Shown: one piece after another, positions 10,503-32,207 of the stretch
Numbering within the stretch: the first letter of the stretch is position 1
Layout of the letters: the number at the start of each line of letters is the position of its first letter
DNA from: Thermoplasmata archaeon
GTDB taxonomy: Archaea; Thermoplasmatota; Thermoplasmata; Lutacidiplasmatales; UBA184
Length of the DNA stretch: 45,232 nucleotides
Reading direction: 5' to 3'
NCBI GenBank assembly: GCA_021809545.1
Contig: JAKAYL010000011.1
Coordinates: forward strand, 1-45,232
The notes under the pieces: model-generated
What the model was told of the DNA's origin: nothing
What the model saw: only the letters and a program-made list of their open reading frames with translations
Databases searched by the model: none
Program-made: the position numbers and the translations under genes

Positions 10503-11555
10503 GTGAAGGTCTTGTTCGTCGGGGGCGGGATGCTCCCGATCCCTCCCGAGGGGTGGGGGGCGGTGGAGAAGGCCATCTTCCAACTCTCCACGGCGCTCCG
10601 CACGCTCGGGGTGGAGACCGAGATCGTCAACCGGCCGGGCCACGGTCGTTCGCTGGATGAGTACCGCTTTGCCCTCCGTCTGGGCTCGTTCCTCCGGGGG
10701 CGAAGCTGGGACGTGCTCCACGCCTCGACCCCGGTGGTGGCCAACCGGATCTCCCAGCTCGGGCACCCCTTCGTGTACACCTCCCATTCCCGTCACTGGT
10801 TCGGCACCCGAGGGATCACGGAGCGCTGGGGTCTCCACCTCGAGCGCCGGGCGGTGCGCCGGGCCGTGCGGACCATCGCCCTCACCCCGGAGGTGGCCCA
10901 CGCGATGCGGGAGGCGGTCCCCGGGGTCGAGCCCTCGCGACTGCGGGTCATCCCGAACGGGGTGGACACCTCTCGCTACGTTCCTCGACCGGCGGAGCGT
11001 ACCGGTCTCCGGGTGCTGGGGGTAGGGGCGATCCATCCTCGGAAGCGCTGGCACGTGGGGATCGGGGCGCTCGCCCAGGTCCCGGAGGCGCAGGTCACAC
11101 TGGTGGGCCCGGTGCAGGACCCGGCGTACGCGGCCGAACTCCGTCGCAAGGCGGGAGGTGCCTCTCTCACCCTGGCCGGTGAAGTGCCGGAAGCCGAACT
11201 CTGCCGCCTCTACGGGGTCAGCGATGTGTTCTTCCTGCCGAGCGGTTCGGAGCTCATGAGCCTCGCAGCCATGGAGGCGCTCTCGAGCGGCCTTCCGGTC
11301 GTGGGCACCTCCGTTCTCTCCGGGGTGGTCGACGCCGACCGCAACGGGCTCCTCGTGCCCGAATCTCAGGACCTTGCGCGGCTCGAGAAGGACCTCGGGT
11401 CTGCGCTCCGCTCCTTGCTCGCAGACCAGGCGCTGCGGGCGCGGCTGGGCGCCGCAGGACGGGAAAAGGCGGTCTCTACTTGGGATTGGACCGTGATCGC
11501 GAAGGCGACCCTCGCGCTCTACTCGGAGATCGAAAGGTCACCGCGGCACCCGTAG
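10503..11555 (+). CDS. Glycosyltransferase, GT4 family
   Basis: Retaining GT-B glycosyltransferase of 350 residues. The N-terminal Rossmann half begins M-K-V-L-F-V-G-G-G with P-P-E-G-W-G-A-V-E, the acceptor-side Gly loop of GT4 enzymes. The C-terminal half holds G-A-I-H-P-R-K-R-W and the E-x7-E donor-sugar motif in E-L-M-S-L-A-A-M-E. No membrane segment. Starts at GTG 10503, since this preserves the conserved first beta strand. It may build surface glycans or lipid head groups; the many N-glycosylation sequons in the surface proteins of this window give it possible targets (inference). It is isolated, with a minus-strand gene on each side. Confidence 0.87.
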   Translation: MKVLFVGGGMLPIPPEGWGAVEKAIFQLSTALRTLGVETEIVNRPGHGRSLDEYRFALRLGSFLRGRSWDVLHASTPVVANRISQLGHPFVYTSHSRHWFGTRGITERWGLHLERRAVRRAVRTIALTPEVAHAMREAVPGVEPSRLRVIPNGVDTSRYVPRPAERTGLRVLGVGAIHPRKRWHVGIGALAQVPEAQVTLVGPVQDPAYAAELRRKAGGASLTLAGEVPEAELCRLYGVSDVFFLPSGSELMSLAAMEALSSGLPVVGTSVLSGVVDADRNGLLVPESQDLARLEKDLGSALRSLLADQALRARLGAAGREKAVSTWDWTVIAKATLALYSEIERSPRHP

Positions 11556-11578: not shown

Positions 11579-12397
11579 TCAATCCGGGTGGGTTCCAGGG
11601 GCCTGGGAGGAACGGCCCTTGACGAACTCTTGGGTGCCCTCTACGCTGAGCCCCTCTCCTCCGATGTGGAAGGCACGGCGCTGCGTATCGTGCGGCGACC
11701 CCCGCATCCGTCGGACGGAGATCCAGCGCTCTGTGCGATGCCCCGCCCATCCCCGTTCCAAGTCGATCTCGCCCCGGCAGAGGATGGCCTCCGGGGTGAG
11801 ATCCGCGTAGGGTTGGGCGGTGAGGAGGGTGGTCACCCCCTTCTCCGATAGGAACCGCAACAGCGACTGGATCTCCACCCGTTCGATCTGGAGGTCGTTG
11901 CCCGCGCGGAGCGCGTAGTGGCGAACCGAGGTCATCGAGTCGATCAGCACCCGCTTGAAGGGGATCACGTCGAGCTGCCGGCGGAGCTTGAGGTAGATGG
12001 ACTGCAGGGTGACGTCCTCAGAGGCCTGGGCCTTGTTCGGCTTGTCGCCGACCTCCTGCATGGACTTCACGTCGTGCATCGACTTTATCTCCTGCAGATT
12101 GCCCATCCGGCGGAACACCTGGACTCCCGGAGTGGCATCGAGGGTGTGGATCTTGGAGAGGTCCCAGCCGAAGGGGCGGACGTTGTCGAGGATCTCCGGT
12201 GGGGGCTCGTCCACGGCCACCAGGAGCACCTTCTCCCCCACGCGGACTCCCTCGAGCAGGAATTGGAGGCCGAGCAGGGTCTTTCCACTACCCGCGACCC
12301 CGCAGAGCAGGTAGGGGCGTCCGGGGGGAAGGCCCCCGCCGAGCATGACGTCCAGTCCCGCTACGCCGGTGCTGGCGCGGAGGTCACTGGGGGCCAT
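11579..12397 (-). CDS. KaiC-like RecA-superfamily ATPase, short paralogue
   Basis: Single KaiC/RadA-type ATPase domain, 272 residues. Walker A G-V-A-G-S-G-K-T is at 33-40, an acidic A-V-D-E-P-P-P-E follows strand 2 (E64), and Walker B R-V-L-I-D-S-M is at 149-155. Residues 96-125 form an inserted Met/Lys/Asp-rich stretch. The start overlaps the end of the large KaiC gene by 14 bp and has a perfect GGAGGTGA Shine-Dalgarno 3 nt upstream, so the two are translationally coupled and probably partner. Archaeal KaiC-like proteins are mostly uncharacterised; known ones act in signalling or motility. The last ~30 residues are Gly/Ser/Pro-rich and probably disordered. Confidence 0.85.
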   Translation of the reverse strand: MAPSDLRASTGVAGLDVMLGGGLPPGRPYLLCGVAGSGKTLLGLQFLLEGVRVGEKVLLVAVDEPPPEILDNVRPFGWDLSKIHTLDATPGVQVFRRMGNLQEIKSMHDVKSMQEVGDKPNKAQASEDVTLQSIYLKLRRQLDVIPFKRVLIDSMTSVRHYALRAGNDLQIERVEIQSLLRFLSEKGVTTLLTAQPYADLTPEAILCRGEIDLERGWAGHRTERWISVRRMRGSPHDTQRRAFHIGGEGLSVEGTQEFVKGRSSQAPGTHPD

Positions 12398-15300
12398 CGT
12401 TCACCTCCTTGGGAGATTCCCCGTCCTCCGGCGCAGAACCCTCCCCAGGAACGGGCGGAGGCTGGACCGGAGAGGTTTCGGGGGAGCTGACCGGAGAAGC
12501 GTTTGCCTCGTCGCCTTTGACCTCGGCCGACTTTTCCTCCGAGGTCGCCGGGGGATCTCCCGGGGGAGCGTCCGGGGCGGTCTTCGGTTCCTCGAGCGTG
12601 GTCTGGGGATCCGCGTTCCCCGCGGGATCCTCCGTCTTCTTCTTCCGAGGACGGGGGGTCCGCGGCTTGGCCGTGCCGGTCGCGGCCTTGCGGTGAGTGG
12701 TACGTTTCGGTGCGCCCTCCGCCGGGACCTCTGTGCCCGTGACCGGTGGGAAGGCGGGGGCCGTCCCGGGGAGAACCGCCGGGTCTGCAGGCACAGCCGA
12801 GATCAGCGCCCCCGCGGCAGGGGGGGCCTCGGCCGTCTTCCGGGCCCTGGGTTTCCTGGGCTTGAGGGCTCCCGGTTCTCCGGCCGCCTTCTTCGCTGTC
12901 CTGCGAACTCTGGGTTTGGTGACCGTCGGGGTCTCCCCAGGGGCCTTTTCCTCCACGGTCCCAGGTCCCGAAAGGCTCGGAGCAGTGGTCGGGGCCTCGG
13001 AGGGCGGTGCGATCTCGGGGGTGACAGGGGAGGGTTCCGGGAGCGAGGGGGAGGGAAGAGGGGCCGACGGAGCCTCCTCCGGCCGGATGGGAGCGGGTTC
13101 TGGGACCGCCTTCGTTTCCGGAGCCACGGTCTCCGCCGGTGTTGCTGCGGTGGCGGGCTCGGACGGAGCGACCTCGGCCAACTTCTCAGGCGCGGGGACC
13201 ACCTCCGGCTCGGGAGCAGGAGAAGCTTGGATCAACGGAGCAGGGGGAGCGACCTCGGCCAACTTCTCAGGCGCGGGGGCCACCTCCGGCTCGGGAGCAG
13301 GAGAAGCCTGGATCAACGGAGCAGGGGGAGCGACCTCGGCCAACTTCTCAGGCGCGGGGGCCACCTCCGGCTCGGGAGCAGGAGAAGCTTGGATCAACGG
13401 AGCAGGGGGAGCGACCTCGGGAACCTTGGTCTCGGATACCGGGAGGGGGGTCGTCTCGGGTTCGATGGGTTTAGTTTCGGGGAGGGGGAGTGACGGGGCC
13501 TCGGTAGGTTCGGTAACCTCGGGAGTCCTGGGAGCTTCCTCCTCTACCACGGGGGTCGGTGGAACGGGCTCCGTCTCGGGGAGCGAGGGAGGGGCCGTCT
13601 TCGGTGTCTCGGGAAGGGTCTCGGGTTCGCTGGGTGCGGGTCCTGTCTCGGGAAGGGTTGGAAGTACCGTCTTTGGGGTCTCGGGAAGGGTCTCAGGTTC
13701 GCTGGGTGTGGGCCGCTCGGCTTCCGGGGAGACCGGAGGCACCGCGGGGACGCCTTTCTCTTCGACGGGGACCGAAACAGGGGCGACCTCCTCCTTTCGT
13801 GCCTCTGCTTCGGCCACCGCGGGAACGACCTCCGGGGCAGATGTGAGCGGGATCTCGGAAGGGGGGGTCTCCACCGGAGGGGGAGTGACCGGCTCGACCG
13901 TGGGTTCGGGCTGCGCCGTGACCGTCTCCTTTTCTACCGGGGGAGTCAGAGGCTCGGGTTCCGGCTCCTTCTCGACCGGGGGTGGGAGGGGTACGGTCGG
14001 TACCTTGGGCGGAGGAGGGGTCTCCCGAACAGGCGGGGGCGGAGAGGTGGGAGGTGGCCCGCTTCGCACGGGGGTAGGCTTCGGGGGCGAGGAGGAAGGG
14101 ACCGAGGGAGAGGGAGGTCGGGTGATCCCGGGGACCACTCCTGGTGCGGAGGGTCTCGGGGGATACCCGGGAGGTCGCCCCAGCGGAGGTCGGAGACCCG
14201 GGGGAGTAACGGAAGGAGGGCGGGAGGGCGGTGGAGAGCCAGGGGGACGGGCGGGAGTTCCCACGGGGACCACTCCTGGGGGACGGGAAGGGGGCCGGGT
14301 CGGAGGAGGAGTCCCGAGGGGAACCCTCGGCGGTGGGGTAAGGCCCCCCGGCCGGGAGGGGGGCGGCGAAACGCCCGCGGGAGAATGCGCAGGCTTGGGA
14401 GGAGCCAGCGAGGGGGCTACCGGAGGCTTTGCCGTGGGGAGAGAGGGGGTCGACGTAGATGTGGGGGACCCAGGTACGGAGGGTGTAGCGGCGGGCACGG
14501 GGGGTCTGGGCGGGCCCCCTCCGACCAGCATGGTCTTGGCGACCCGCTCGAGGAGCTTGGGGGGGAGGTTCTCCGAGACGGACTTGCCCTGCTTCGTGCC
14601 CAGCATGGCGACCATGCGGCTGAGGAGCGGGAGCAGGGTGCGGATGTCCGCCCGGGGGGCGCCGGAGAGGTTGGGGGCGACGGGGGTAGGCTCCGCCTCC
14701 ATCGTCCGCTTGAGGGCGGGGAGCCGGCCACCCTTCTCCTTGAACTCCTCGGAGACCTGGTGGGTCAGGATCAGGTGGTTGACCATCTGGCGCGCCTCGA
14801 GAAGGATCTTGAAGCTGTCCTCGAGCTTCATCTCCGAGAGGTTGGCGTGGGCCTTCTGGAGGAGATGGCGGACCGGCTCGGCGTCGATCCCGAGCTCGGC
14901 GAGCTCGCTCACATCGTCGAGGAGGGTGAGCATGGCCCACTCGGCCTCGAGCTGGAGCTCGGTCTCGGAAGGTTTGCGGACCATCGCTTCGACCTCGGGG
15001 GGTGTGGCGAGCAGGTGGGAGGTTCCCCGGGCGATGGAGACGGTCGGATCGATCTCGACACCGTGCGAGGTGATCCGGTACGGGTGGAGGTACCGGTCGT
15101 GGGGGCTCCCGCGGAACTTCTCGACCCCGATGGCCCGCATGGTGAGACCGTCGGCTTCCCAGGAGTAGAGGTGGAACTCACCGCGGGCGATGAGGAGCTC
15201 GGGAGGGGCCCTCTCGGAGGGACCTTCCTCCATGGTGACGATCGCGGTGATCTTGAGATCCGAGAGGAAGCGGAGGAAGACCTGGGCCCCGACGATGTCG

Positions 15301-15815
15301 TCGAAGCCCTTCATGCCGAAGTACTTGAGGGCGGTGAGGGAGTCGATGACGATCCGTCCGTAGAGCCGCTTGACGGTCTCCATCTTCAGGGCCTGCATGA
15401 GCGCCGTCATGGCGATCTCGACGCTCCGGAACTCGTCCGTCTGGCGCATGCTCAGGGCGATGTCCCCCAGGCGCTGGGCGGAGCGGACGGTCGCGATATC
15501 CTTGAAGGGGGCCTTCTCGTAGCGCATCACGTCGGGGATCGCATCGAAGACCCACATCCGGTCGAGCTCCTTGGGGAAGTGACGGAAATCCATCCGCAGC
15601 TCGTTGGGAGGGTCCTCTAAGGTGACGTACAGGACCTCTTCCCCCTGCCGGATCCCCTTGAGGAGGAACTGGAGGGCGGTGGTGGTCTTGCCCGAACCCG
15701 GGGGTCCGATGAGGAGGTAGGGACGTCCGGGGAGGAGTCCGCCTCCCAGCATATCGTCCAGGCCCGCGATCCCGGTAGAGATCTTGACGTGGGGGCCAAC
15801 GAAACCGTTCCTCAT
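12384..15815 (-). CDS. KaiC-like ATPase with very long Pro/Glu-rich tail (1143 aa)
   Basis: Residues 1-260 are a KaiC-type ATPase: Walker A G-P-P-G-S-G-K-T (37-44), E67 in T-L-E-D-P-P, Walker B R-I-V-I-D-S-L (154-160). Residues ~285-370 are helical and charged, perhaps a dimerising segment. From ~385 to the end the protein is low complexity: first Pro/Gly/Ser/Arg-rich, then Pro/Glu/Val/Thr-rich with 24-residue and 27-residue tandem repeats, then two Lys/Arg/Ala/Pro clusters (~960-995 and ~1037-1066) like histone H1 tails. Composition and length are far outside the KaiC family norm (~240-500). The tail might scaffold partners or bind nucleic acid (inference). The gene lies 38 bp after trmY; a CTTAAG element at 15852-15857 may be an internal promoter. 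Confidence 0.85.
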   Translation of the reverse strand: MRNGFVGPHVKISTGIAGLDDMLGGGLLPGRPYLLIGPPGSGKTTTALQFLLKGIRQGEEVLYVTLEDPPNELRMDFRHFPKELDRMWVFDAIPDVMRYEKAPFKDIATVRSAQRLGDIALSMRQTDEFRSVEIAMTALMQALKMETVKRLYGRIVIDSLTALKYFGMKGFDDIVGAQVFLRFLSDLKITAIVTMEEGPSERAPPELLIARGEFHLYSWEADGLTMRAIGVEKFRGSPHDRYLHPYRITSHGVEIDPTVSIARGTSHLLATPPEVEAMVRKPSETELQLEAEWAMLTLLDDVSELAELGIDAEPVRHLLQKAHANLSEMKLEDSFKILLEARQMVNHLILTHQVSEEFKEKGGRLPALKRTMEAEPTPVAPNLSGAPRADIRTLLPLLSRMVAMLGTKQGKSVSENLPPKLLERVAKTMLVGGGPPRPPVPAATPSVPGSPTSTSTPSLPTAKPPVAPSLAPPKPAHSPAGVSPPPSRPGGLTPPPRVPLGTPPPTRPPSRPPGVVPVGTPARPPGSPPPSRPPSVTPPGLRPPLGRPPGYPPRPSAPGVVPGITRPPSPSVPSSSPPKPTPVRSGPPPTSPPPPVRETPPPPKVPTVPLPPPVEKEPEPEPLTPPVEKETVTAQPEPTVEPVTPPPVETPPSEIPLTSAPEVVPAVAEAEARKEEVAPVSVPVEEKGVPAVPPVSPEAERPTPSEPETLPETPKTVLPTLPETGPAPSEPETLPETPKTAPPSLPETEPVPPTPVVEEEAPRTPEVTEPTEAPSLPLPETKPIEPETTPLPVSETKVPEVAPPAPLIQASPAPEPEVAPAPEKLAEVAPPAPLIQASPAPEPEVAPAPEKLAEVAPPAPLIQASPAPEPEVVPAPEKLAEVAPSEPATAATPAETVAPETKAVPEPAPIRPEEAPSAPLPSPSLPEPSPVTPEIAPPSEAPTTAPSLSGPGTVEEKAPGETPTVTKPRVRRTAKKAAGEPGALKPRKPRARKTAEAPPAAGALISAVPADPAVLPGTAPAFPPVTGTEVPAEGAPKRTTHRKAATGTAKPRTPRPRKKKTEDPAGNADPQTTLEEPKTAPDAPPGDPPATSEEKSAEVKGDEANASPVSSPETSPVQPPPVPGEGSAPEDGESPKEVNDGPQ
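13168..13410 (-). repeat. Three 81-bp tandem repeats inside the KaiC-like gene
   Basis: Units start at 13168, 13249 and 13330 with exactly 81-bp spacing and only one or two mismatches; a fourth begins at 13411 and soon diverges. Each encodes 27 residues of the form L-A-E-V-A-P-P-A-P-L-I-Q-A-S then P-A-P-E-P-E-V. Near identity at DNA level means recent duplication or gene conversion, and copy number probably varies between strains. Confidence 0.95.
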
Positions 15816-15853
15816 GAGAGAGCAGATTAGTGGCTTCTACAGCGGTCGCGACC

Positions 15854-16510
15854 TTAAGGCTTCTCCGTGTCGAGGCGGTTGTGGACGATCGCAAGGCACT
15901 GTGCCGTGTGGAGCGGGAGGGGTCCGAGCGAAATCCTTCGGGGTCCCGCCGCTTCGAGCAGCGTGCGTTCCTCCTCCGAGAACTCGTAGGGGTCGCTGAG
16001 AATCGCCCGGAGGGGTCCGCGGGAGAGCCCCGGAGGGAATTCCCCGCCTCCCTCGGTGAACCAGACCGTCCCGGGCCGGGAGGCGTACTCCGTCAGGAGC
16101 CGGGGCGCCTCCTCCCTCGCCACGAAGATCCCGGGGCTCGTCTCGGTCTCGGGGTCCAGGGGGATCCCCTCCAGTTCGTTGTGGGCGACCACGCCCCAGT
16201 AGCGCTGGATCGCGTTCTTGACCAGGGCGGCGGTCGAACGCTCGTCGGGGTTGAGGTTGCGCAGCCGGGTCGAGTCCAGGCGGACCCGGAGGGTCCGTTG
16301 GGGATCGGAGACGAAGAGGAGGAGAAGTTCGGTGTCGCGGCGCATCCCGTTCGAATAGAGGAAGGCCGCGGTGACCACGTTCGCCACGGCATCCATGCGG
16401 CCCCCCGCGCCAGCGAGGTCGTTCAGGGAGAAATCCCCGGTGACCGGGACCCTATGGACGACGACGAGGAAGGAGCGGCTTACTGTTCCTGGGGCTGCCG
16501 CTGGACCCAA
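15854..16510 (-). CDS. trmY: TrmY, tRNA pseudouridine-54 N1-methyltransferase
   Basis: SPOUT-class methyltransferase that makes m1-pseudouridine at position 54 of the tRNA T-loop in archaea. Landmarks: R-S-F-L-V-V-V-H-R, G-D-F-S-L-N-D-L-A-G-A-G-G-R-M-D, M-R-R-D-T, N-P-D-E-R-S, and the C-terminal SAM-binding trefoil ending H-T-A-Q-C-L-A-I-V-H-N. 218 residues with the TTG start at 16510, which has GGTGA 6 nt upstream; no ATG or GTG precedes the conserved core, so TTG is the only workable start. It overlaps the upstream gene by 31 bp. The middle is slightly longer than in methanogen TrmY. Confidence 0.85.
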   Translation of the reverse strand: MGPAAAPGTVSRSFLVVVHRVPVTGDFSLNDLAGAGGRMDAVANVVTAAFLYSNGMRRDTELLLLFVSDPQRTLRVRLDSTRLRNLNPDERSTAALVKNAIQRYWGVVAHNELEGIPLDPETETSPGIFVAREEAPRLLTEYASRPGTVWFTEGGGEFPPGLSRGPLRAILSDPYEFSEEERTLLEAAGPRRISLGPLPLHTAQCLAIVHNRLDTEKP

Positions 16511-16935
16511 ACCTCGTCACCCAGCTCGTGGTAGATCGTTTGCGCGGTGACGTAGTCACCGGTATGATTCTGCTCCTCTCGGGCCCGCTCGATCTCCATC
16601 TCCCGGGACTCCTCGCCCGCCAGCCGCATCACGCGGTCCCGGCGCATGGACCAGTAGTGGATCCTCCACTCCCGCCCGTCGTAGAGGGTGGTCTCGTCCC
16701 GTTCCGTCTCGAGGAGCCCGCAGTCCTCGAGCATGTAGAAAACGTCCCGGTCGTCGGGTTCCAGGATGTTGTCGATGATGCGCTCGTTGAATCCGAAGAA
16801 GTTCAGGATGTGCGAGGCGATGGCCTCGGCATCCTCAAGACGCATGCTCTCCCGGCCCACACTGCGCCGAAGGGCCATGGAGAGGGAGGCAGTATCAATA
16901 GTGGTCTGGAGCTGATCAGGCATCTCCCTATACAT
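16480..16935 (-). CDS. DUF6015-like archaeal protein
   Basis: Soluble, 151 residues from ATG 16935. The core pattern (A-I-A-S-H-I-L-N-F-F-G, I-I-D-N-I-L, D-R-D-V-F-Y-M-L-E-D, then G-R-E-W-R-I-H-Y-W) resembles a family I know from Thermoplasmata as DUF6015; I recall this from memory and it needs a search. It looks like a small helical or winged-helix domain followed by a charged helix (residues ~118-136). Function unknown. The start was chosen because the TATA box at 16958-16965 is 26 nt upstream, leaving the longer open frame outside the transcript. First gene of the probable DUF6015-trmY-KaiC-KaiC operon. Confidence 0.7.
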   Translation of the reverse strand: MYREMPDQLQTTIDTASLSMALRRSVGRESMRLEDAEAIASHILNFFGFNERIIDNILEPDDRDVFYMLEDCGLLETERDETTLYDGREWRIHYWSMRRDRVMRLAGEESREMEIERAREEQNHTGDYVTAQTIYHELGDEVWVQRQPQEQ

Positions 16936-16957
16936 TCCTGTATATGTGACGGGGAGA

Positions 16958-16965
16958 CTATAAAA
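16958..16965 (-). promoter_or_regulatory. TATA box of DUF6015-trmY-KaiC operon
   Basis: TTTTATAG on the minus strand, centred 26 nt before ATG 16935, fits a leaderless message. Read on the plus strand it is CTATAAAA, an equally good TATA, but no gene starts at the right distance that way. Confidence 0.6.
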
Positions 16966-17861: not shown

Positions 17862-18770
17862 ATGGAGACCGGCGGCAAATGCCCGAACTGCGGGTCCTCC
17901 CGGTGCGAGAAGGACCCTCGCCTTCTCGAGATCCACTGCGTGGAGTGCGGCCTGGTTCTCACCGGACCCGATTTGGTCAACCCCCTTCCCAACCTCTCGG
18001 ACGTCAAGGAGGACCGGGGAGGACGGGGTGTGGGCCCCCTGACGAGCCCTTCCCCCTACCGCAAGATGCTCGGGACCACCCTCCGGGGGGTGAAGGATGC
18101 CCAGGGGCACCGTCTCGCCCAGGACGTCATGAGCCATTACAATCACCTCGGCTGGATGATGCGCCGGGAGATCGTCCGGGGCAAGCTCTGCCAACCGGAG
18201 AATCCTGAGGCCCGCGAGATCATCGCCCGGGTGACGTCCAAGCTCGAGCTCCCCACCCTCATCCGGGACGAGGCCGAATCCATCTTCCGGGAAGCCATCT
18301 CCAGCGGGGCCCTCCGCGGACGGGGACTCCCTGCCTGCACCGGCGCCGCGATCTATGCGGCCTGCCGGAAGTACAACCAGCCCCACACCCTCTCCGAGAT
18401 CGCCGCCGCCATGTCCATCAAACGCTGGGAGGTCGGCCGCGCTTTCAAATCCCTCAACCGGGGGCTCAACAAGCCCGTGCCTCCCGCAGGACTCAAGACG
18501 TACCTTTACCGCTACGCCGAAGAGCTCGCGCTCTCGCCGGCCGTGCGGAGCACGGTCGAGGAGATGCTGGAGAAGACCTCCTCGGACCCGGAGGTCTCCG
18601 GTCTCTCTCCCCATGGGGTCGTCGCCGCGCTCATCTACATCGCAGCCGAGCAGCACGGGGAGAAGGTCAGCCGCGGCGAGATGGCCCGCGTCGGCTCCGT
18701 CACGGAGATGACGCTCCGGACCACGACCAAGGTCATGGAACGGCTTGTGGGCCGGCCCCGGGCCCAGTAG
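17862..18770 (+). CDS. tfb: Transcription initiation factor TFB (TFIIB homologue), divergent paralogue
   Basis: Bridges TBP at the promoter to RNA polymerase. 302 residues, full length. The N-terminal zinc ribbon has C7-x2-C10 and C26-x2-C29. Two cyclin repeats follow: the first with L-R-G-R-G-L-P and A-A-I-Y-A-A-C-R, the second with S-G-L-S-P-H-G-V-V-A-A-L-I-Y-I-A and V-G-S-V-T-E-M-T-L-R. The B-reader/linker between ribbon and cyclin repeats is unusual: the normal H-D-K-G-L-S-T segment is replaced by S-P-Y-R-K-M-L-G-T-T and the R-L-R-K-W-Q motif is missing. This suggests a specialised paralogue rather than the general factor (inference). Ends 7 bp from the convergent xerA gene. Confidence 0.88.
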   Translation: METGGKCPNCGSSRCEKDPRLLEIHCVECGLVLTGPDLVNPLPNLSDVKEDRGGRGVGPLTSPSPYRKMLGTTLRGVKDAQGHRLAQDVMSHYNHLGWMMRREIVRGKLCQPENPEAREIIARVTSKLELPTLIRDEAESIFREAISSGALRGRGLPACTGAAIYAACRKYNQPHTLSEIAAAMSIKRWEVGRAFKSLNRGLNKPVPPAGLKTYLYRYAEELALSPAVRSTVEEMLEKTSSDPEVSGLSPHGVVAALIYIAAEQHGEKVSRGEMARVGSVTEMTLRTTTKVMERLVGRPRAQ

Positions 18771-28328: not shown

Positions 28329-31300
28329 TCAATCCTTACCCTGGGCGGGTGGTTCTGTGCTGTCGGTGGAGGCGGGCGGGGTCGGGTTCTCCTCCGCCCG
28401 AGGCTCCTGCGGTTTCGGAGTTTCCCCGCTCGGCGTGCCTTTCTTACCCTTTCTTGTCAGGATGTACGCCATCAGGGCCACCACCAGGATGACCAGGAAT
28501 CCTACGGCCGCCATCAGTCCCAGTTCGAGTCCGCTCAAGGAGCTGGAGTTCCGGGAAGGGGAAGTGGCCGCGGTCACGGTCACCGGGGAGGCGGAGGCCG
28601 ACACCGAGGCGCCCGCTCCGTCGGAGACTGTCACCTGGGCGGTGTAGGTTCCGGTCGCATTGGCCTCGCAGGCCAAGACCTGCGAGTCGGCGGAGCTGCA
28701 CCCGGTGGGGAGCCCCTTCCAAGCGTAGCTGAGCGGGGCCGATCCGCCGCTCACGGTGACCGTGAAGACCACCGACTGGCCCACCTTCAGGGTCGAGACC
28801 GAGCTGGTGAGCTTGGGGGTGGAGAGCGCGGGGGAGACCGTGAGGACCACGGGGGCTGACGTGACCGTCCCGCCATTCGAGTCGTTGACCGAGACCGTGA
28901 CCGTGTAGGTGCCCGGGGCTGTGGGGGTGCACGATATCTTCAGGGTGTTGGAGGAGGCGCACCCGGTCGGGAGTCCGGACCAGGAATGCGTGGGGGCGAC
29001 CCCGGTGCCATTGGTGGCCGTCGCCGAGAGCGCGGTGGTCTGTCCTACATCCATCTGGGTCCGTGTGGCGGTGATGGAGGAAACGGTGGGGAGAGCCGAC
29101 ACGGTGAGGTTCACCGTGGCGCTGGCGTTGGCGCCGTTCGAGTCCGTGACGACCACGGTGACGGTGGATCCTCCCGGAGAGTTGGGCACGCACACCACGA
29201 CGGAGGTGTTGGCCGGCGCACAACCCGCGGGCAGGTTCGACCATGCGTAGCCATAGACCCCGCCCCCTCCCCCGATCGTGGTCGAGAGCATCACGCTCTG
29301 ACCCACGTCCAGGGTGGTCCGAGAGGCCGACAGGCTGGCGGTTCCCAGTGCGGGCGAAATGACTAGGACGATGGTGCTCGAACTCACGTTCTTCCCGTTC
29401 GAGTCCTGGATGGACGCATTCACCAGGAAGGTCCCGGCCGTGGCGGGAGAACAGGAGATCGAGGTCGCGTTCTGGCTCGGGCATCCCGCGGGCAGCCCCG
29501 ACCAAGCATAGGTGGAGGGGAGGCCCGTGCCGTTGGAGGCCTTGAGGGAGAGCACGGTGCTCTGCCCCACGTCCAGGGTCGTCCTAGTTGCCGTCAGGGT
29601 CGGGACCGCGGGATCGGACGACACCGTGAAGGAGAGGGGTGGGCTCGAAGCGTTCCCCCCATTCGAGTCGTTCACGCGGAAGGTGACGGTGTAGGTGCTG
29701 GCGGCTGTGGGGACGCAGGTCACCGAGAGGGCGTTGGCGGACAGGCATCCGGAAGGAAGTCCCGACCAACTGTAGACATCTCCTCCCGAACCGGGGTTCG
29801 CCACGGTGGCCCGGAAGGTCACCGCCTGGCCGAGGTCCGTGGAGGACGGAGAGGCGGTGGGTGCCGCCGTCACCGCCGGGTCGGGGAAGATGGTGAGGGT
29901 CGTTGCGCCGGAGGTGCGGGACCTGGGCGACGGTAGAAGGGAATCCGTCACGGTCAGGTTCACGGAATAGGGGCCGAGCGCGGTGGCCGAGGGGATGCAT
30001 GTGAAGCTGAGGGCGGTCGACGCACACCCTGAGGGCAGACCGCTCCACGCATAGGAGTACGGGAGCATCCCTTTGGCGATGTGGTTCCCGGAGAAGGTGA
30101 CCGACTGGCCGGAATCCACAGAGGCGGGAGCGACGGTGGGAGGAGGTACCCACAGGCCTGTGCTGACGTTGACCACGTCAAGGGTCCAGGAATATTGGTT
30201 CGACACAAAGAGGGTGTCCGTCCGCGTGTCCAGCGCCACTCCGTCGGGTCCCAATCCCATCGGGATTATGGCGCTGACGGAGTTGGTGTGACCATCGATC
30301 TCGATCAAGCTTCCGTTGTTGGTGGTGTAGTACCCATTGTAGTAAGTTGCGTAGATGGTGTCGGTCGCAGTGTCCACAGTGACGTCAATGAGGAAATATT
30401 GAGACGAGTAAAGCGGCACGTCTATGGTGGTGGTGACAGTGTTCGTGGCTCCATCGATCACGTCCATGGTGTTCACGGGCTGGTGCGCCACGTAGATGGT
30501 ATCCGTCGCTGTGTCCACCGCGATGTGTCCGGGGAATTCCCCCACGGGGATGGTGGCGGTGACGGTGTTGGTGGCGCCATCGATCACGCTCACGGTGTTC
30601 GAACCATAGTTCGACACGTAGATGGTATCGGTCGCAGAGTCCACCGCGACAGCCACAGGGGTTGAACCCACGGAGATGTTGTCCGTGACCTTGCCCGTGG
30701 CGCAATCGACCACGCTCAGGTTGTTCTGAAGAGAGGCCACCGCGTAGAGCGTGTCGGTCGCACTGTCCACCGCGATCCCTAAAGGCTGAGATCCCACCGT
30801 GAAGTTGCCCATGACCTTGTTGGTGGTGCCATTGATCACGCTCACGTTGTGCTCATAGTAATTTACGTTCGACACATAGATGGTGTTCGTCCGGCTGTCC
30901 ACCACAATATCCCGAACCTCGGTATTCAGTGGGACGGTGGCGACGACCGCGTCGGTGGTGCCATTGAGCACGGACATGCAAGTACCGATTATGATGGGGC
31001 CAGTATTGTTGCACATTGCGGTATTCAACACATAGACCCGGTCCGTCTCACTGTTCACCGCCACCCCGCCAGGCATCGGGGCTTGTCCTGGGAGGATACG
31101 CACGGTGTTGACGACATGGTTGGTGCCTCCGTCCACCACGCTCAAGACGTCCGAAGCCTCACCCGCCACGTAGACCGTGTCGGTGGCATCGTCCACGGCG
31201 ACACCCCAGGGGTTCCTGGTCCCCACGGAGACGACGACGTGTCCCCGGGTCTTTTGGTCGTAGATGCTCATGTTGTTCGAAGCGGGGCTCGTGATGTAGA

Positions 31301-32207
31301 AGGTGTCGGTCGCAGGGTCCACCCCGACCCCCTGAGGATCCACACCCTCCGTCGAGGTGGCGAAGGGGACATTCGTATGGCCGTTGATCCAGGTCGTGGT
31401 GCTCGAGTACGAGTTCGCCACAACGATCACATCGGTCAGGTCATTCACCGCGATCCCGGTGGGGTGCAATTGCACGCTCACCTGGGTAGTGAGGGAGTTG
31501 TTGGTGGCGTTGATCACGCTCACCGAATTCCAGCCAGAGTTCGTCACATAGAGGGTGTCCGTGACCGAGTCCACGCACACCCCCCAGGGCTCGTACCCGA
31601 CAGCAAAGGTGGCGGTGACGGCTTGGGTGGTCTCGTTGATCACGCTCACGTTGTCCGAGCCCTTGTTCACCACGTAGACCCTGCCGGTCGCACTGTCGAC
31701 GGCGATCCCGATAGGGTTGGTTCCCACGGGGATGGTGGCGGTGACGGTGTTGGTGGCGCCATCGATCACGCTCACATCGTTCGAACCCGAGTTCGTGACG
31801 AAGATGGTGTCCGTCCCGCTGTCCACTGCGATTCCCCACGGTTGTAACCCCGTAGGCACGGTCGCAATGATCGTGTTGGAGGCACCATCGATCACGCTCA
31901 CATTGTTCGAACCCTCGTTCGCCACGTAGATGGTGCCCGTGACGTTGTCCACTGCCACTGCATAGGGGTGGGAACCCACGGGGATGAACCCCAGTACCCC
32001 GATCGTGGTTGCCACGCTCGGCGCGCCAAAGCCCCCCGCGGGGGCGGGGTTCAACGCCGGTGTATCACGGGGTGTGGGCACGTTGACCGAGGCGGTGGGA
32101 CTTCCCCTGCTCTCCGCCCCTAAGGCGGTCACGGGTGGCAAGACCATCACTGCGGCGATGGTCACGATCAGCGCCATGTAGGCCCAACTTTCCCGGCTCG
32201 CGTTCAT
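28329..32207 (-). CDS. Giant surface protein: 14 YVTN propeller repeats, six PKD-like domains, C-terminal anchor
   Basis: 1292 residues. The start ATG 32207 is preferred over 32219 since the TATA box is 29 nt upstream of it. A signal peptide (~1-30) leads to 14 repeats of about 42 residues of the form A-V-D-x-x-T-D-T-I-Y-V-x-N ... V-S-V-I-D-G-x-T-N (~75-690), enough for two seven-bladed propellers. Six PKD/Ig-like domains of ~87 residues follow (~690-1220), each with W-S-G-L-P-x-G-C and a second Cys about 12 residues on, so one disulphide per domain. A membrane helix (~1230-1250), basic stop-transfer and a Pro/Glu-rich cytoplasmic tail end it. Dozens of N-x-S/T sequons. Related archaeal proteins are called YVTN surface-layer proteins; adhesion is likely. 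Confidence 0.9.
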   Translation of the reverse strand: MNASRESWAYMALIVTIAAVMVLPPVTALGAESRGSPTASVNVPTPRDTPALNPAPAGGFGAPSVATTIGVLGFIPVGSHPYAVAVDNVTGTIYVANEGSNNVSVIDGASNTIIATVPTGLQPWGIAVDSGTDTIFVTNSGSNDVSVIDGATNTVTATIPVGTNPIGIAVDSATGRVYVVNKGSDNVSVINETTQAVTATFAVGYEPWGVCVDSVTDTLYVTNSGWNSVSVINATNNSLTTQVSVQLHPTGIAVNDLTDVIVVANSYSSTTTWINGHTNVPFATSTEGVDPQGVGVDPATDTFYITSPASNNMSIYDQKTRGHVVVSVGTRNPWGVAVDDATDTVYVAGEASDVLSVVDGGTNHVVNTVRILPGQAPMPGGVAVNSETDRVYVLNTAMCNNTGPIIIGTCMSVLNGTTDAVVATVPLNTEVRDIVVDSRTNTIYVSNVNYYEHNVSVINGTTNKVMGNFTVGSQPLGIAVDSATDTLYAVASLQNNLSVVDCATGKVTDNISVGSTPVAVAVDSATDTIYVSNYGSNTVSVIDGATNTVTATIPVGEFPGHIAVDTATDTIYVAHQPVNTMDVIDGATNTVTTTIDVPLYSSQYFLIDVTVDTATDTIYATYYNGYYTTNNGSLIEIDGHTNSVSAIIPMGLGPDGVALDTRTDTLFVSNQYSWTLDVVNVSTGLWVPPPTVAPASVDSGQSVTFSGNHIAKGMLPYSYAWSGLPSGCASTALSFTCIPSATALGPYSVNLTVTDSLLPSPRSRTSGATTLTIFPDPAVTAAPTASPSSTDLGQAVTFRATVANPGSGGDVYSWSGLPSGCLSANALSVTCVPTAASTYTVTFRVNDSNGGNASSPPLSFTVSSDPAVPTLTATRTTLDVGQSTVLSLKASNGTGLPSTYAWSGLPAGCPSQNATSISCSPATAGTFLVNASIQDSNGKNVSSSTIVLVISPALGTASLSASRTTLDVGQSVMLSTTIGGGGGVYGYAWSNLPAGCAPANTSVVVCVPNSPGGSTVTVVVTDSNGANASATVNLTVSALPTVSSITATRTQMDVGQTTALSATATNGTGVAPTHSWSGLPTGCASSNTLKISCTPTAPGTYTVTVSVNDSNGGTVTSAPVVLTVSPALSTPKLTSSVSTLKVGQSVVFTVTVSGGSAPLSYAWKGLPTGCSSADSQVLACEANATGTYTAQVTVSDGAGASVSASASPVTVTAATSPSRNSSSLSGLELGLMAAVGFLVILVVALMAYILTRKGKKGTPSGETPKPQEPRAEENPTPPASTDSTEPPAQGKD
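30541..31775 (-). repeat. 53-bp exact direct repeat within the YVTN region
   Basis: The same 53 bp occur at 30541-30593 and 31723-31775, 1182 bp apart, coding the V-S-V-I-D-G-A-T-N-T-V-T-A-T-I-P-V-G part of two propeller blades. Exact identity over 53 bp in otherwise diverged blades suggests gene conversion or recent blade exchange. Confidence 0.85.

Follow-up and report, generated by a model that had tools for sequence, protein, structure and literature searches.

Paired KaiC genes of Thermoplasmata archaea, with a degenerating partner and a very long tail that is basic towards its end

KaiC-family ATPases are abundant in archaea, and few of them have a known job. In KaiC, the lysine and the arginine of the KxRG motif contact the nucleotide of the neighbouring subunit, and the cyanobacterial-type protein is regulated by a flexible C-terminal extension. 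The Elongator subunits Elp4, Elp5 and Elp6 form a hetero-oligomeric RecA-like ring that binds nucleic acid. The RadA paralogue aRadC has been described as ADP-bound hexamers that bind DNA (PMC4080772), and PMC5847659 presents the combination of active and inactivated KaiC domains as a known archaeal theme, iKaiC. Here we describe a pair of adjacent KaiC genes, designated KaiC1 and KaiC2, in a 45,232-nucleotide stretch of DNA from a Thermoplasmata archaeon of the order Lutacidiplasmatales (contig JAKAYL010000011.1 of assembly GCA_021809545.1), which is referred to as the window. The two genes are coupled and co-inherited, they are fused in one relative, their active sites differ in a fixed manner, and KaiC1 carries a low-complexity tail with a basic element that has been kept. 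The pair has the following parts (window coordinates):

11579..12397, minus strand: KaiC2, 272 amino acids (aa), partner KaiC ATPase with GSGKT kept and an RxRG finger (Pfam; sister group of KaiC1)
12384..15815, minus strand: KaiC1, 1143 aa (PF06745, 9e-34; orthologues throughout the family)
12401..12410, minus strand: Shine-Dalgarno sequence AAGGAGGTGA of KaiC2 (sequence inspection)
15006..15815, minus strand: RecA/KaiC-fold ATPase domain of KaiC1, aa 1-270 (AlphaFold2 model; Foldseek)
15684..15707, minus strand: Walker A motif GPPGSGKT of KaiC1, aa 37-44 (lysine in 29/29 family members)
15108..15119, minus strand: KxRG trans-finger motif of KaiC1, aa 233-236 (alignment of 29 family pairs)
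14526..14966, minus strand: predicted helical domain of KaiC1, aa 284-430, with long helices at 284-360 and short helices at 389-429 (AlphaFold2)

Both proteins belong to the KaiC superfamily. Their PF06745 matches, 117 bits for KaiC1 and 140 bits for KaiC2, lie above the cut-off of 26.6, and Walker A and Walker B are present in the alignments. The normal Walker set that had been noticed in KaiC1 from the sequence alone is confirmed. The AlphaFold2 model of residues 1-430 of KaiC1 has a mean pLDDT (predicted local distance difference test) of 77, and its top Foldseek matches are PH0284, with 24-27% identity, and the KaiC CI domain. The helical domain that follows the ATPase domain is conserved across the family and in the fused KaiC1-KaiC2 protein described below. 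The original prediction had placed a tail of about 750 residues directly behind the ATPase domain. The long tail stands, but the helical domain at residues ~284-430 comes first and leaves about 713 proline-rich residues of low complexity. The Shine-Dalgarno sequence of KaiC2 is strong and lies within the end of the KaiC1 frame.

A strong match was found in 88 of the 106 genomes of the order. Most of these have the two genes side by side in a constant order, 18 genomes hold neither, and those that hold just one of the two are incomplete drafts. The gap between the genes ranges from -35 to +67 base pairs (bp) among relatives, often as a 4-bp overlap. Among these relatives, which are unclassified Thermoplasmata, are Candidatus Lutacidiplasma silvani and UBA184. 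Adjacent KaiC1/KaiC2-like pairs with open frames of about 250-550 aa also occur in several further families of the class, and in the class-wide comparison of pairs the long KaiC1 tails were seen only in the family of the window. Outside Thermoplasmata identity falls to about 32%, which is the level of generic KaiC. The pair is conserved in soil and acid-environment archaea and is apparently undescribed; no description of it was found in the literature searched, which excluded the 2017 survey of archaeal KaiC proteins.

In a maximum-likelihood tree, which contained no aRadC sequence, KaiC1 and KaiC2 form sister groups within the Thermoplasmata sequences, apart from the bacterial KaiC domains (support 98/93 for KaiC1). 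The internal branching of the two groups is parallel, with two KaiC2-like rows of family f5 just outside. We take KaiC1 and KaiC2 to be the products of one old duplication in Thermoplasmata, as judged from their sequences. The distances within KaiC1 and within KaiC2 correlate with r = 0.86, a value that shared ancestry alone could yield. One genome (G010) has an ordinary separate pair and, in addition, a 627-aa fusion of KaiC1, its helical segment and KaiC2 that has no proline-rich tail (L069:6159-8039, minus strand). Such fusions usually point to physical partners, and it is probable that KaiC1 and KaiC2 form a heteromeric pair.

The shared ATPase superfamily also brings to mind an ArlH-like component of the archaellum or a KaiABC-like component of a circadian clock. 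Archaella are reported to be absent from Lutacidiplasmatales (PMC9287336), which disfavours an ArlH role, and KaiC2 reaches 22 bits with the ArlH model, whose cut-off is 215. With the circ_KaiC model (TIGR02655; cut-off 546) the two proteins reach 49 and 70 bits. This model describes tandem domains; KaiC1 and KaiC2 each have a single domain, and a two-domain chain was seen only in the G010 fusion. We consider a role in either system hardly credible.

Alignment of 29 pairs from the family revealed a difference between the active sites. In KaiC1 the Walker lysine and the KxRG motif are present in all 29 sequences. In KaiC2 the RxRG motif is likewise present in all 29, and the Walker lysine is found in 20; in the remaining nine, from genera g1 (part), g3 and g7, it is replaced by arginine (GSGRT). 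The KaiC2 of the window retains GSGKT, whereas two sister species do not. The simplest reading would be a mixed complex, with catalysis by KaiC1 and a regulatory role for KaiC2.

The tail of KaiC1 is composed of the following parts:

12966..14525, minus strand: proline-rich disordered linker, predicted from composition, aa 431-950, length varying between species
13165..13420, minus strand: 81-bp tandem repeat in the linker, 3.2 copies, 98% alike (repeat search)
12804..12950, minus strand: basic lysine/arginine (K/R) cluster 1, aa 956-1004 (window count; equivalents in most family members)
12579..12734, minus strand: basic K/R cluster 2, aa 1028-1079, containing KPRTPRPRKKK (window count)
12387..12578, minus strand: acidic C-terminal end of the tail, aa 1080-1143, net charge -11 (charge count)

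The tail is unusual. Sister species hold its frame open over a similar length, and divergence between their tails is greatest at codon position 3 and least at position 2, with position 1 between, although protein identity goes down to 26-54%. This is the pattern of coding sequence, so the KaiC1 tail frame is real, and a frameshift or other artefact as its origin is ruled out. The tail and the neighbouring KaiC gene, whose absence from sister genomes had been named as the observation that would tell against the original prediction, occur there together. The tail appears disordered by its composition. Its longest stretch of low hydrophobicity is 323 aa, compared with at most 115 aa in the other genes of a 328-kb sample of this genome, in which 247 genes were predicted. 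An 823-aa open frame lies antisense to the tail (12697-15168, plus strand); it is most likely a mirror effect of the GC-rich proline codons of the tail, which are probably also the cause of the strong GC skew at 13001-15000.

The linker varies freely. KaiC1 is 1108-1203 aa long in the genus of the window and 575-1315 aa long among the relatives in the family, and the linkers cannot be aligned. The tandem repeats noticed in the tail at the outset are confirmed, and their units differ by species: 81 bp in the window, 39 bp in 8.4 copies in G004 and 147 bp in 2.1 copies in G002, with no tandem repeat found in the KaiC1 linker of G003. Because the repeats differ between species, the linker appears to be under selection for length and composition rather than for sequence.

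The end of the tail has been kept in a different manner. The two lysine/arginine clusters seen near the C terminus at the outset are present, with up to 12 K/R residues per 30-aa window (p = 0.001 by shuffling). At least 8 K/R residues in 30 aa occur close to the C terminus in 25 of the 28 complete family tails, with a shuffling p of at most 0.05 in 22 of them. The last 175 residues share a common two-part basic pattern, exemplified by KRKRKAAGATTSRKR...KPKRRTAARRKAPPVT in G022 and by KPRKPRARK...KPRTPRPRKKK in the window. In the order's two remaining families KaiC1 is shorter but likewise lysine-rich, and most of these proteins terminate in K/R runs. In six genomes of genus g4 (L216-L221), a second KaiC1 copy without the helical domain and the proline-rich tail has a short arginine-rich end. 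Since the basic element is kept in long-tailed, short-tailed and tail-less relatives, the basic end, and not the linker, appears to be the working part. Tails of genus g5 (L047, L048, L049, L054, L056 and L059) share a hydrophobic SFGPTFDSL-like motif that precedes the basic clusters and is possibly a docking peptide.

The same tail can be read in another way, as a passive solubility or spacer element or as a protein-docking scaffold, with the pair serving as a signal-transduction hub and the basic patches binding acidic protein partners. The free drift of the linker and its expansion by different repeats in each species fit this explanation, as does the resemblance of the g5 motif to a docking peptide, and archaeal KaiC and iKaiC proteins are described as signal-transduction hubs in PMC5847659. 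However, a mere spacer leaves unexplained why the basic element is retained in most tails and in short-tailed and tail-less relatives, and the Pfam scan of KaiC1 and KaiC2 revealed no sensor, REC or PAS domain. A signalling hub is a serious possibility, although not a probable one.

A second alternative is a regulator of homologous recombination, similar to the RadA paralogues aRadC and RadB, in which the basic tail would be a DNA tether. The superfamily is shared, SSO2452 (aRadC) is among the PDB matches, and aRadC hexamers bind DNA and modulate RadA (PMC4080772). However, the SSO2452 match is weak (41-45 bits) and stands behind KaiC and PH0284, no recombination gene is a conserved neighbour of the pair, and near-complete genomes without the pair exist. 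This function is regarded as improbable.

The neighbourhood of the pair was inspected for candidate partners. The minus-strand order in the window is DUF6015, TrmY, KaiC1 and KaiC2, and the group is followed by a convergent glycosyltransferase gene (10503-11555, plus strand). The layout originally noticed, with four genes in the same direction, a 31-bp overlap, a 38-bp gap and a 14-bp overlap between KaiC1 and KaiC2 with its Shine-Dalgarno sequence, is exact in the sequence. The additional features are:

15854..16510, minus strand: TrmY, tRNA pseudouridine-54 N1-methyltransferase, TTG start (Pfam, NCBIfam; adjoins the pair in this genus only)
16480..16935, minus strand: DUF6015 protein (Pfam; its conserved neighbour is TrmY rather than the KaiC pair)
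16957..16964, minus strand: TATA-box-like TTTTATAG 5′ of the DUF6015 ATG (by eye)

The TATA-box-like TTTTATAG, as identified by eye, is likely to be the promoter of the local operon. The Pfam matches of all four proteins are above their cut-offs, with 97 bits for DUF6015 and 105 bits for TrmY (Methyltrn_RNA_2); the NCBIfam TrmY model gives 143 bits, below its cut-off of 183. A GTG start with a 4-bp overlap was ruled out for TrmY, as the codon reads GTA, and the TTG start stands. A divergent TFIIB-like factor (TFB) gene at 17862-18770 (plus strand; 160 bits against a cut-off of 384) adjoins the KaiC operon in this genus, and a different TFB is found near the KaiC pair in other genera. Further away, at 28329-32015 on the minus strand, the window encodes a large predicted surface protein with an NHL/YNCE-like propeller and PKD repeats, which contains a 126-bp DNA tandem repeat at 30424-30726.

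TrmY and DUF6015 had been counted as parts of one system with the two ATPases. As a general assignment this is rejected. The two genes adjoin each other in 14 of the 14 family genomes checked; the adjacency was noted in the window, G005, G006, G007, G009, G010, G013, G025, G028, G031, G036 and G038. Only the four genomes of the genus of the window have them beside the KaiC pair; in other genera they lie elsewhere, and they persist in G025 and G036, both without the pair. Because they occur in pair-negative genomes and beside the pair in one genus only, TrmY and DUF6015 form an independent couplet. As they are neighbours in all family genomes checked, independently of the KaiC pair, DUF6015 and TrmY may act together to modify tRNA.

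The same observations bear on the proposal that the operon with TrmY is functional and that the pair works on tRNA as the hetero-hexameric RecA-like Elp456 module of Elongator does. In addition to the arrangement in the four genomes of the genus, a loose proximity is seen in G037 of another family, where TrmY, DUF6015 and the KaiC pair lie within about 13 kb, and KaiC2 has a sub-threshold PAXNEB (Elp4) match of 17 bits against a cut-off of 28. The dispersal of the couplet in other genera and its retention in pair-negative genomes argue against such a machine. Elp3 occurs with and without the pair, and a link to Elongator was rejected for want of co-absence of the pair with Elp3 and of a PAXNEB score above the cut-off. 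A tRNA machine is very unlikely.

In sister genera a PGI-like gene, F3a, F3b and a TFB lie to one side of the pair, while GT4, frequently together with an HD protein, lies to the other. Four pair-negative loci read TFB - PGI - GT4 - HD, with F3a/F3b and KaiC1/KaiC2 cleanly missing on either side of PGI. A link of the pair to PGI, GT4 or HD was rejected, as these genes stay where the pair is gone and GT4 is absent beside the pair in some genomes. F3a and F3b (L051:4140-6379 and relatives) are two homologous helical proteins with no confident Pfam family. The structure model of F3a has confident helices and no PDB match better than E = 1.2, and the protein has a short basic C terminus; several F3b members start with a zinc-ribbon-like CxxC...CxxC segment. 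Homology of the KaiC1 helical domain to F3 is not claimed, as the hhalign probability is only 22-30%.

The co-occurrence of F3 with the pair was assessed by order-wide profile searches with F3a and F3b. Among the family genomes of at least 90% completeness outside genus g1, 28 have both, six have neither and none is mixed (Fisher p = 7e-7, a value that ignores kinship). At a completeness of at least 80% the counts are 54, 2, 1 and 10. The same searches detected no convincing F3 in families f2 and f3, where the pair is present. The ELP3 tree divides the pair-negative genomes into three supported clades, apart from singletons of low completeness.

We propose that KaiC1 and KaiC2 are subunits of one ATPase, made from translationally coupled genes. 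The subunits would assemble and probably form a ring that holds nucleotide at the subunit interfaces, like KaiC and aRadC. Catalysis would fall to KaiC1, whereas KaiC2 would have a regulatory or structural role and be able to lose its Walker lysine. The helical domain of KaiC1 may serve as a docking surface, and the disordered linker would let the bipartite H1-like/AT-hook-like basic element reach a polyanion, most likely DNA, or RNA, with binding that depends on the nucleotide state. In the sister genera the complex probably also works with F3a and F3b. The outcome would be an ATP-gated scaffold or switch that binds nucleic acid, and not a clock or a part of the archaellum. The original prediction, in which an ATPase bears a tethered basic, possibly nucleic-acid-binding tail and has a second KaiC for its partner, gains support from the co-occurrence of these elements in sister genomes, while its function is still a matter of interpretation. 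We give a nucleic-acid-binding function, suggested by the composition of the tail, an even chance of being correct. The model as a whole, a heteromeric KaiC ATPase with catalytic KaiC1, regulatory or structural KaiC2 and a tethered basic element that binds DNA or RNA, appears to us about as probable as its opposite.

Several observations weigh against this model. The KaiC1 basic element could bind protein, membrane or polyphosphate instead, and the K/R clusters are absent from the tails of the three members of genus g7. Walker A of KaiC2 is intact in the window, so KaiC2 may be an active ATPase here. In the genus of the window the pair is present and F3a/F3b were not detected by the order-wide profile searches, which implies that F3 is not a general requirement. 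For the eight core pair-negative genomes, an origin as one single clade is not rejected (approximately unbiased test, p-AU 0.21), and the joint loss of F3 and the pair may therefore be one event.

A bolder version of the proposed nucleic-acid-binding ATPase, which is speculative and which we consider rather unlikely, is an ATP-dependent nucleic-acid machine. It would consist of a two-subunit KaiC ring, one subunit of which is turning into a pseudo-ATPase, several disordered arms with H1-like basic ends and, in most genera of the family, the helical-repeat proteins F3a and F3b. Its task would be the ATP-gated organisation or patrolling of the chromosome or of an RNA assembly.

The couplet is readable from genomes alone, through the split of labour between its subunits, the natural fusion and the clean joint removal with two candidate partners, and the role of such archaeal KaiC proteins thereby becomes directly testable. 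KaiC1 is also an example of a very long archaeal disordered region in which the linker drifts freely and the charged end element is kept.

Comparison with known systems places the pair in the KaiC superfamily and outside the tested families of the clock, the archaellum and Elongator. Like cyanobacterial-type KaiC, it has the RecA/KaiC fold, Walker A, an acidic catalytic pair, the KxRG finger and a flexible C-terminal extension, which is regulatory in the cyanobacterial-type protein. However, the cyanobacterial-type protein is one chain with the two domains CI and CII, whereas here two single-domain genes are found, with a fused form seen in one genome only; the KaiC1 tail is hundreds of residues long and carries basic clusters, and the NCBIfam scores are far under the cut-off. 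The closest solved folds or sequences are PH0284/PH0186 and SSO2452 (aRadC), which lack such a tail or helical domain, as their chains have 235-251 residues; we know of no dedicated degenerate partner for them. Elp4/5/6 differ from the pair in that no family match is above the cut-off and no co-absence with Elp3 is seen. The resemblance of the KaiC1 end to histone H1 and AT-hook tails, with K/R/P/A-rich clusters such as KPRTPRPRKKK, is one of composition, with no family match. The archaeal KaiC and iKaiC hubs (Makarova et al. 2017, cited in PMC5847659) share with the pair the KaiC family, lineage-specific fusions and the inactivation of some ATPase domains; the iKaiC examples in PMC5847659 are fused to REC, PAS, DUF835 or MEDS, whereas the couplet described here joins an active paralogue to one that is degenerating and bears a disordered basic tail on KaiC1. 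What sets the pair apart within the KaiC superfamily is this combination of two genes, a partner that is degenerating and a tail of great length with a basic end.

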